This document shows positions 44,405 to 47,206 of a stretch of DNA of 47,206 nucleotides, piece after piece. Origin of the DNA: Candidatus Berkelbacteria bacterium (GTDB lineage Bacteria; Patescibacteriota; UBA1384; DTJR01); NCBI GenBank assembly GCA_026397175.1, contig JAPLVK010000011.1, positions 1 through 47,206 on the forward strand, given 5' to 3'. The position numbers were made by a program, and so were the translations under genes. The notes under the pieces are model-generated. The model worked only from the letters and a program-made list of their open reading frames with translations, was not told where the DNA came from and did no database searches. Numbering within the stretch: the first letter of the stretch is position 1; each line of letters opens with the position of its first letter.

Positions 44405-44712
44405 TATTGCGAACTTTGCTCCATTCCTTTCTCTTTGGCTTTATCTTGAATTAAAGAAAGGGCCTTAAGACGATTTGCCTCAACTTCGAGCCGTTCTTTT
44501 TCGCTCGTTACGCTTTTATTTTGCTCCTCTAGATCAGAAACGATGTAATTTTTAGTAGCGGACTGCGACGATTGCGAGAGATAGAAAAACGAAAAAGCAG
44601 CCAAAATCACAACAATTAAAACTTTAAATGAATTTGGGCCAAAAAACACCCGTCTTTCAACAGACCTTTGCCTAACCCCCAAATCCCTATTTCTTTTTCC
44701 TACAAAAAACAT
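44404..44712 (-). CDS. ftsL: FtsL-like cell division protein
   Basis: Small single-TM coiled-coil protein between rsmH and ftsI. Confidence 0.6.
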   Translation of the reverse strand: MFFVGKRNRDLGVRQRSVERRVFFGPNSFKVLIVVILAAFSFFYLSQSSQSATKNYIVSDLEEQNKSVTSEKERLEVEANRLKALSLIQDKAKEKGMEQSSQ

Positions 44713-45611
44713 TATTTAATCCTTTCTGCGACGCGGAGCTTCGCGCTCCGACTTCTTATGTTTCCTCTTATTTCATTTCTCGTCGGTACAATTGGTTTTT
44801 TCGTAATAATTTTAATTGATCCTACATCTGCGTTGCTTTTAAAAATATTTTTTATGAGCCGGTCCTCGCCCGAATGGAAACTGATTACCGCAACTCTTCC
44901 GCCAATGTTTAACTTTTCAATCGCCGCGGCGACACCTTCTGAAATTGCTCTATATTCGTCGTTGACCGCTATTCTTAAGGCCTGGAAAACTTTTGTGGCC
45001 GGGTTGGTTTTTCCGTGTTTGTTGCCTTTGATTTTGACAATTTCCGAGACCAAATCGGAAGTCCGTAAAAATTTTCGTTTTCTTCTTCTGTCAACGATCG
45101 CTTTGGCGATTTGGCGGGAAAGATATTCATCCGCAAAGTTATAAAAAATGTCCGCTAATTCCTTTTCGCTCGCTTCGTTGATAATATCTGAAGCCATTAC
45201 CGATTTTGATTTGTCGAGACGCATATCGAGCGGTTCATCTCCCTTAAATGAAATTCCTCTTTTTGATTCATCAAGATGAAAAGATGCGACGCCAAGATCA
45301 AATAATATTTTATCAATTTTAGAAATTTGCATGCCGTCTAAAATTGATGCCAAGTCCCTGAAATTTGCTCTGATCAGTTTGGTGTTTGGCTTTTGGAAGT
45401 CATCCCTTACCTGACTTAAAACCTCTTCATCCTGCTCGATGCCTATTAACAGCCCTTTTAAGCCAATCTTCTCTGAAATCAGCTTGGAGTGCCCTCCGAA
45501 GCCAAAAGTGGTATCAACCACAACTTCGCCCGGTTTGATATCAAGATTTTCCATCACTTCGTTGACTAAGACAGGTTTGTGCATCATTTTTTTGTCAAAG
45601 ATCAAAATCAA
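44712..45611 (-). CDS. rsmH: 16S rRNA (cytosine1402-N4)-methyltransferase RsmH
   Basis: HKPVLVNEVMENLDIKPGEVVVDTTFGFGGHSKLI...KIDKILFDLGVASFHLDESKRGISF...KVFQALRIAVNDE. Confidence 0.96.
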   Translation of the reverse strand: MILIFDKKMMHKPVLVNEVMENLDIKPGEVVVDTTFGFGGHSKLISEKIGLKGLLIGIEQDEEVLSQVRDDFQKPNTKLIRANFRDLASILDGMQISKIDKILFDLGVASFHLDESKRGISFKGDEPLDMRLDKSKSVMASDIINEASEKELADIFYNFADEYLSRQIAKAIVDRRRKRKFLRTSDLVSEIVKIKGNKHGKTNPATKVFQALRIAVNDEYRAISEGVAAAIEKLNIGGRVAVISFHSGEDRLIKNIFKSNADVGSIKIITKKPIVPTRNEIRGNIRSRSAKLRVAERIK

Positions 45612-45671
45612 AAATTGAGCCGAAGGTCAAAATTGATTTTCCGTTTTGATCTATCATTATTTTATTAAAGA

Positions 45672-45842
45672 ACATGGGCGGTAAGACTCCTCCTCACTTT
45701 CCGAACACGGGAAACCCCAGTATCCAGAAGAGCAATCCCACCGTTTAAGATGGCGAGAAGTCCCCCTCCTCGGGTGAACCGCCCATGTCAATTCACTCGT
45801 GAGCAGCTGACCTAAAGCCAGCACTTCACGTTGCTAATCACA
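45672..45842 (-). ncRNA. Candidate cis-acting structured RNA in the mraZ-rsmH intergenic region
   Basis: 11-bp closing helix ACATGGGCGGT/ACCGCCCATGT (45672-45788) enclosing three hairpins, plus a second hairpin domain (45800-45842); several stems need G-U pairs that exist only on the minus (sense) strand. Confidence 0.6.
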
Positions 45843-45844
45843 AG

Positions 45845-46276
45845 TTAAATTCCCAACTCCGACAGATCCTCGGCAATTTCGCCCGCCTCGCCTTCGACTT
45901 GACTGATTTGTTTGACCCAGGACTTTTTGTCCCAGATTTCAATTCGATCATACAACCCCGTGATTATAACCTGTCTTTTTATGCCTGCGTATTTTCGAAG
46001 ATAGGTTGGTAAAATTATTCTCCCCTGTTTGTCAAATTCCACATCGGACGCTCCGGCTAAAATCAACCGCGCATAAAGTCGAGCTGATGATTTTGAGACC
46101 GGTAGCTGACCGATAGATTGGGCCATTTTCTGCCACTTTTCCGCGGTGAACAAGAAAAGGCACCCATCAAGCCCTTTGGTGATGACTGCCTCGTTTTTGA
46201 TGAATTTCCTAAATTTTGCGGGTACTGCGACCCGTCCTTTTTCATCAATTGCGTGTTCGTACTGTCCAATAAACAT
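45845..46276 (-). CDS. mraZ: Transcriptional regulator MraZ
   Basis: MFIGQYEHAIDEKGRVAVPAKFRKFI...DKQGRIILPTYLRKYAGI; two AbrB-like repeats. Confidence 0.95.
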   Translation of the reverse strand: MFIGQYEHAIDEKGRVAVPAKFRKFIKNEAVITKGLDGCLFLFTAEKWQKMAQSIGQLPVSKSSARLYARLILAGASDVEFDKQGRIILPTYLRKYAGIKRQVIITGLYDRIEIWDKKSWVKQISQVEGEAGEIAEDLSELGI

Positions 46277-46286
46277 TTTTTATTCA

Positions 46287-46320
46287 CCACTTTTCCCCAC
46301 CTTGCACCACTCTTTTCCAC
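46287..46320 (-). promoter_or_regulatory. MraZ-type operator: four GTGG direct repeats at exact 10-bp spacing
   Basis: Minus strand GTGGaaaagaGTGGtgcaagGTGGggaaaaGTGG, about 11 nt upstream of the mraZ start. Confidence 0.85.
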
Positions 46321-46472
46321 TTCAACCATATTACCTCTGTATAGATGGGTGTCAATACGGAACAAAAGACGAACAATATTTATAGCAAAAAATGGCTACA
46401 ATAACCGAGAAAAGCTTGATATTAAGTCAAATTTATGCGAGTATATAAAACTCACAGAACTTTGACTTGTCG

Positions 46473-46656: not shown

Positions 46657-46866
46657 ATGAGAGTAGTAATCACCGGCCACAACCCAGAGAAGCCCGAAGA
46701 ACAGGTTGAGTTGACAGAGACCAAACTCGCCCCCTTGTACGAGCTCAAACCTCGCACATGGCGTAAATTGCTCAAAGGATCTAGGTTCGCGCAAGCTGTC
46801 CACAAGGTACTTGCATGTAGTACTTTGTCAAGTACCCATTTTTTAGACAAGTTGTCTGCACATTAG
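46657..46866 (+). CDS. Small hypothetical protein, 3' end probably altered by an IS insertion
   Basis: SD-like AGAGGAG before ATG; MRVVITGHNPEKPEEQVELTETKLAPLYELKPRTWRKLLKGSRFAQAVHKV...; tail overlaps the putative IS end. Confidence 0.5.
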   Translation: MRVVITGHNPEKPEEQVELTETKLAPLYELKPRTWRKLLKGSRFAQAVHKVLACSTLSSTHFLDKLSAH

Positions 46867-47206
46867 TTTGTTTTTCAAATTGTATTGCTCTAGGAAGTTT
46901 TGAGGCGACATTTTTAGTTTAGTATGGATTCTTTTATTGTTATAATAATAAATAGTTTGATAAATAGCATTGATTAGTTCTCCCAGAGTTTCAAACTGGT
47001 CTGTATGCCCAAGGTCCAGTTTGAAGTTGGAATAATATGATTCCTTATGCGGATTTTCCCATGGGGAGGCCTTTTTACTCATTGAGATTTGGATGTTTTC
47101 TCTTTTGAGTAGACCAAGGTATTTGTTCGAATCATATTCGCTGCCTTGATCGTCATGGTGATACAAAGGCGCCTTACCGACATTCACCAAAGCGTTTCTG
47201 AAAGCG
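46826..47206 (-). mobile_element. IS3-family (IS150-like) insertion sequence end, truncated by window edge
   Basis: rve integrase-core ORF open to the window end plus IS150-like terminal sequence TGTCAAGTACCCATTTTTTAGAC. Confidence 0.7.
46843..47206 (-). CDS. IS3-family transposase (integrase catalytic core), 5' truncated by window
   Basis: HHDDQGSEYDSNKYLGLLKRENIQISMSKKASPWENPHKESYYSNFKLDLGH...YYYNNKRIHTKLKMSPQNFLEQY. Confidence 0.9.
   Translation of the reverse strand, partial: AFRNALVNVGKAPLYHHDDQGSEYDSNKYLGLLKRENIQISMSKKASPWENPHKESYYSNFKLDLGHTDQFETLGELINAIYQTIYYYNNKRIHTKLKMSPQNFLEQYNLKNKLMCRQLV

Follow-up and report, generated by a model that had tools for sequence, protein, structure and literature searches.

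A folded RNA was found between mraZ and rsmH (mraW), at the head of the dcw cluster, in a 47,206-nt stretch of DNA from a Candidatus Berkelbacteria bacterium (referred to here as the window). Because RNA of the same general build occupies the same spot in many relatives, this RNA probably represents an undescribed element that controls the cell-wall and division cluster.

Locus and predicted fold of the RNA

Pfam analysis identified the flanking genes, both on the minus strand, as mraZ upstream (positions 45845 to 46276; PF02381, E value of 3.2e-37) and rsmH downstream (44712 to 45584; PF01795, E value of 2.5e-92). The gap between them measures 260 nt. The start of rsmH is the ATG at 45584 or possibly a TTG at 45611. 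Four RRGTGGNNNN repeats with 10-bp spacing were observed just before mraZ (46286 to 46322, minus strand; AAGTGGAAAA, GAGTGGTGCA, AGGTGGGGAA, and AAGTGGT), and their sequence looks like the usual MraZ operator. Also upstream of mraZ, the end of an open frame (46843 to 47205, minus strand) resembles by eye an IS3-type transposase (integrase core).

A sequence-only reading of the window had proposed a multibranched RNA in the gap, and the fold analysis agrees with it. The minus strand of positions 45672 to 45842 gave a folding energy of -75.8 kcal/mol versus -55.7 ± 4.0 kcal/mol for dinucleotide shuffles (z score of -5.0), and 0 of 200 shuffles were as stable. The z score of the plus strand was -2.0. 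The longest single helix of the gap, taken alone, was modestly unusual (5 of 100 shuffles); the case for this RNA is made by the entire fold together with its conservation, not by that helix by itself.

Conservation was assessed in a three-species alignment (A7) of the window with two genomes of the same family, G001 and G002, whose RsmH proteins share 54% and 50% identity with that of the window and which carry the element in the same gap. Both species keep the fold, with compensatory changes. In A7, 93.4% of the cells pair, and changes on both sides were found at 8 pairs, compared with 4.0 in shuffles (at least 8 in 2 of 500). Sliding the partner by 1 to 3 columns reduced the pairing to 41 to 51%. 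Since A7 holds only three sequences, its support is good and not overwhelming by itself. Taken with the folding energy, it indicates that the RNA of the window is almost certainly a real structured RNA.

The whole element (45668 to 45837, minus strand, as are all of its parts) consists of an upstream hairpin domain, H1, and a domain closed by a long-range helix, P1. Both lie where the sequence-only reading had placed them. H1 (CGUGAAGUGCUGGCU/GGUCAGCUGCUCACG, 45798 to 45830) showed 97.6% paired cells in A7 and changes on both sides at 2 pairs. The P1-closed domain (45669 to 45790) contains a CCC-GAGGA-GGG hairpin and the helices P2, P3, and P4. The 5' arm of P1 (UGACAUGGGCGGUUC, 45776 to 45790) and its 3' arm (UACCGCCCAUGUUCU, 45669 to 45683) are 95.2% paired in A7, and a P1-like helix occurs in most relatives. 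The CCC/GGG pairs of the CCC-GAGGA-GGG hairpin (45762 to 45774) are invariant in A7; this hairpin includes a Shine-Dalgarno-like sequence, AGGAGGGGG (45762 to 45770), which, in the window, is no more than about half unpaired. P2 is formed by GGACUUCUCG (45754 to 45763) and GGAGGAGUCU (45684 to 45693), with 93.3% pairing and 2 double changes. This helix and the CCC-GAGGA-GGG hairpin are better supported than the GAGGAG/CUUCUC hairpin suggested originally, and a UUUCC-CGUGUUC-GGAAA hairpin, likewise unsupported, gives way to the longer P4 hairpin (CUCUUCUGGAUACUGGG/CCCGUGUUCGGAAAGU, 45696 to 45732; 89.4% paired, 2 double and 7 one-sided changes). The predicted hairpin CCAUC-UUAAAC-GGUGG was recovered as P3 (CCAUC-UUAAACG-GUGGG, 45737 to 45753). 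By A7 column mapping, P3 is 85.7% paired with 1 double change; its pairing is good in G000 and G001 and less clear in G002. The rsmH start lies 84 to 98 nt past the element; in the window, the P1-closed domain ends 86 nt before it. Between P1 and this start, a second hairpin, rich in AU, was seen (GATCAAAA...TTTTGATC; 45600 to 45651, minus strand).

The element of the window is traversed by an open frame of 55 codons, and G001 has one too, so that a small leader protein might be encoded in the gap, with the fold being incidental. The family of the window has no common open frame, however; insertions and deletions put the sequences out of frame, and the corresponding frame of G002 is interrupted by stops. 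A leader protein is therefore an extremely unlikely explanation of the structured RNA.

Occurrence of the element among Patescibacteria

Within the class of the window, a recognizable mraZ directly precedes rsmH in 23 genomes; the gap is 166 to 386 nt long in 22 of them and 39 nt in the other. Outside the class, mraZ adjoins rsmH in 52 of 60 sampled Patescibacteria genomes; the gap exceeds 90 nt in 18 of these and is shorter in 34, mostly below 60 nt. Twenty further regions were added, mainly from relatives of positives. Most long gaps contain a long-range closing helix corresponding to P1. In 32 of 52 long gaps, no more than 1 dinucleotide shuffle in 100 produced a long-range helix as long as the longest one of the gap; the same held for 1 of 15 control regions, which were taken from upstream of mraZ. 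Some long gaps (G067, G103, and G104) showed no unusual long helix relative to shuffles. Side observations were made in two further settings. Extra large GC-rich hairpins that have sequence in common, such as GTGAGTAATCCGAATTTATTTCGGATTAC and CCCCTCGAAAAGGGGAGG, flank the element in the gaps of L202 (G078) and L203 (G112). The mraZ-rsmH gaps of Planctomycetota (L043, L045, L056, L060, L062, and others) are also long, about 440 to 670 nt, with sizeable predicted helices.

P1 measures 10 to 28 bp and is often nearly perfect. Its arms are wholly different among families (CUAGCAGCCAG/CUGGCUGCUAG, GGUAGUUAGCGGGGC/GCCCCGCUAACUAUC, and GGUCUGAAGUCAU/AUGACUUCAGACC); the sequence varies freely, and the pairing is kept. 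Mimicry of the 16S decoding site by ACCGCCCAUG in P1 was dropped as an explanation, since other families have a different P1 sequence. A long double-stranded stem with free sequence and conserved pairing would also suit a processing or stability element, in which cleavage by RNase III separates the mraZ and rsmH mRNAs. Such a function does not account for the conservation of the unpaired motifs and of the inner helices, and we regard it as quite unlikely.

Inverted repeats alone would fit DNA elements too, namely a mobile element, an inverted-repeat operator, or a terminator, and a few AT-rich gaps (G076, L070, L072, and L100) look like simple repeats; these gaps are not to be counted. However, the element is single copy or locked in position, and fold energy and G-U pairs favor one strand, in agreement with the sense-strand preference that had been noted from the sequence. 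P1 carries no terminator-like site. A feature acting at the DNA level is thus highly improbable. Among the specific candidates of this kind, a mobile repeat was rejected, the genome of the window having one copy and the f11/f21 motif occurring once each in 3 of 379 genomes, and so was an intrinsic terminator, none being found at P1.

Shine-Dalgarno-like and anti-Shine-Dalgarno-like motifs

Comparison of the gaps revealed two types of element. Type A, which comprises most of the class of the window, carries the Shine-Dalgarno-like motif AGGAGGGG inside P1. It appears as AGGAGG(G) in most type A relatives, as the almost invariant UUAAGGAGGGGCAC directly before the P1 3' arm in families f11 and f21, as a CCC-AAGGA-GGG hairpin in G001, G004, and G005, and as AGGGAGG in only some members of f17. 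The sequence AAGGAGGGGCAC was also observed directly before protein-coding frames with an apparent CTG or TTG start (L269 in G014 C46 and L271 in G002 C9). In these genomes, the type A motif thus seems to be a genuine ribosome-binding site.

Type B, found in several other lineages, carries the anti-Shine-Dalgarno-like motif CACCUCC inside P1, in the forms CACCUCCUAA (f49 and f59), CAUCCACCUC (f48, f104, and f113), CAUCCAUCUC (f58), and CACCUCCAUCC (f37). These motifs are mostly unpaired (0.9 to 1.0), and type B elements also have A-rich linkers such as ACAAAAACAAAA. The type B motif resembles the usual 16S 3' tail, which the genome of the window keeps as GGATCACCTCCTT. Neither motif was present in the gaps of G061, G106, G120, G145, and G087. 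A CsrA-binding RNA, with GGA in hairpin loops, was considered and rejected: no PF02599 match was found in the genome of the window (93% complete), and the controls worked.

Covariation across families

P1 covariation was found in three separate alignments, representing the family of the window, f17, and type B. In the f17 alignment (A8, seven sequences; structure from RNAalifold on A8 itself), 17 double-change cells were counted versus 5.8 in shuffles, a value reached by 0 of 500. For type B, a MAFFT alignment (A2) of families f58, f104, f113, and f87 was used, with the P1 pairs assigned on A2 itself. Six of the 22 P1 pairs changed on both sides, e.g., from A-U to G-C or from A-U to C-G, and the whole-structure score was 0.273 versus 0.161 for shuffles.

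A covariance model (R1) built from the same four families was run over 379 Patescibacteria genomes. Matches were obtained in 12 genomes, all directly after mraZ and none elsewhere, and at least five of these genomes (G077, G177, G197, G164, and G216) lie outside the model-building set. The resulting 12-sequence alignment scored 0.362 versus 0.200; having been fitted to the model, this alignment is biased in its favor. The type A model (R2) found its own f11/f21 members and only two weak matches in the class (E values of 0.012 and 0.072), a range so narrow that types A and B cannot yet be joined by one model. The two types have in common their position, the A-rich linkers, and the P1-closed build, and the P1 stretch CUAGCAGCCAG is common to f11/f21 (type A) and f48 (type B). 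On this sequence evidence, common descent of the two types is likely. Conservation and covariation in relatives, which the sequence-only reading had named as checks on its proposal, are thus positive, and the element is very probably an undescribed one whose position and build are common to many Patescibacteria.

Possible control of rsmH translation

Genomes with the element have weaker Shine-Dalgarno pairing upstream of rsmH (median of -1.0 kcal/mol, n = 42) than genomes with short gaps (median of -4.1 kcal/mol, n = 40), with a P value of 5e-6 from a statistic that ignores the relatedness of the genomes. The distance from the P1 end to the rsmH start ranges from 3 to 140 nt and is mostly 10 to 90 nt. 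In four f11/f21 species (L115, L013, L021, and L026), GCAGCC in the P1 5' arm has two possible partners, a nearby GGCUGC and the distant P1 3' arm. The local GCAGCC/GGCUGC helix excludes P1 and is kept in all four species. These competing helices form a possible two-state switch; competing helices of this kind were not seen in the family of the window. An rsmH start just after the internal Shine-Dalgarno sequence of f11/f21 was rejected, the frame being open only in G026 and G034 and closed in G013 and G039.

The weaker Shine-Dalgarno pairing of rsmH, the position of P1, and the competing helices together favor translational control, short of proof. On this view, the dcw operon of many Patescibacteria, though not of all, would have a structured RNA that acts in cis from a fixed intercistronic position between mraZ and rsmH, where it most likely replaces a simple stop-start coupling of the two genes. 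Forming or opening of the P1 domain would set ribosome access to rsmH and the following genes, and base pairing to 16S rRNA or to ribosome-binding sites would be the way in which the motifs act. The more probable part of this model is that rsmH and the dcw operon are controlled in cis, and participation of the Shine-Dalgarno and anti-Shine-Dalgarno motifs is a tentative part. For an intercistronic cis-acting RNA whose P1 domain sets ribosome access, which is the best explanation as a whole, we see an even chance that it is correct.

A conserved 20-mer in family f59 and a possible role in trans

Model R3, which uses sequence only, also revealed short second sites in f59. A 20-mer, TATCACTTAGGAGGTGAAAA, is present in three copies each in G125 (L259, L255, and L262), G138 (L260, L256, and L263), and G190 (L257, L261, and L264), one G190 copy having a single mismatch. 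One copy lies in the mraZ-rsmH gap, antisense to the operon, and two form the ribosome-binding sites of an alanine racemase gene (PF01168) and of a gene whose product, a putative secreted protein, matches no Pfam family. Given this arrangement, the sense loop UUUUCACCUCCUAAGUGAUA would pair perfectly at both ribosome-binding sites. The 20 letters are unchanged, while the 60 nt upstream of both target genes drop to 20 to 67% identity.

These data could mean that the RNA is cut from the dcw transcript and acts in trans as an antisense small RNA, its loop pairing with the ribosome-binding sites of other mRNAs. The exact complementarity of the f59 loop, the identity of the site despite diverged flanks, and the mostly unpaired type B motifs would fit such a role. 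The evidence comes from one family only, however, and G095, which also belongs to f59, has no extra site. After the f59 finding, the complete genome of G112 (f49) was searched, and no comparable target was found, so that a general trans-acting antisense model was rejected. Moreover, the element always adjoins mraZ, as a cis element would, the type of the window carries the opposite motif, and a protein binding DNA or RNA at the imperfect palindrome TCAC-N7-GTGA could also explain the 20-mer. We therefore consider action in trans unlikely. A combined scheme, in which a widespread Patescibacteria element with Shine-Dalgarno or anti-Shine-Dalgarno mimicry controls rsmH in cis and, in some lineages, alanine racemase and other distant cell-wall genes in trans, is rather improbable; if it were true, the RNA would coordinate cell-wall supply with division. 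The f59 20-mer has no direct bearing on the RNA of the window itself, for which control in cis is the preferred reading.

Comparison with known systems

Rfam analysis of the window at the gathering score and of 13 related loci gave no family match, RF01746 included, and a search of positions 45500 to 46300 up to an E value of 10 gave two chance-level matches only, neither of them RF01746. The inability of the sequence-only reading to match the RNA to the actinobacterial mraW motif is thereby confirmed. Its proposal of a new structured RNA is upheld, and its suggestion of a cis-regulator of division and cell-wall genes fits the locked position between mraZ and rsmH and stays a prediction from sequence. 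The mraW RNA motif (RF01746) is a structured RNA with a published range in the Actinomycetales (PMC2864571, PMC3890552). Both RNAs adjoin mraW (rsmH) in the dcw cluster, but the hosts here are Patescibacteria, and the RNA is built as a P1-closed domain in the mraZ-rsmH gap.

Gene regulation in Patescibacteria is little known. A limited search of the open-access literature revealed no paper describing structured noncoding RNAs of Patescibacteria or the Candidate Phyla Radiation, and riboswitches were mentioned in one paper on Patescibacteria, as synthetic proposals.

Known antisense small RNAs with C-rich loops block Shine-Dalgarno sequences. The mostly unpaired CACCUCC of type B and the complementarity of f59 to two ribosome-binding sites resemble this arrangement, whereas the element is locked in an operon with no free-standing gene, has targets in one family, and carries the opposite motif in the window. 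Known structured leaders control translation through the accessibility of a ribosome-binding site, which they hide or expose. Like these leaders, the element precedes a gene, has a conserved structure supported by covariation, carries a Shine-Dalgarno-like or anti-Shine-Dalgarno-like motif, and in f11/f21 has mutually exclusive helices. It differs from them in lying between two operon genes and in its motif, which most members carry far ahead of the rsmH start. As an undescribed RNA that takes the place of the short junction usual at the head of the dcw operon, with a motif linked to ribosome binding, the element would rank with the first RNA-based regulators put forward for Patescibacteria.
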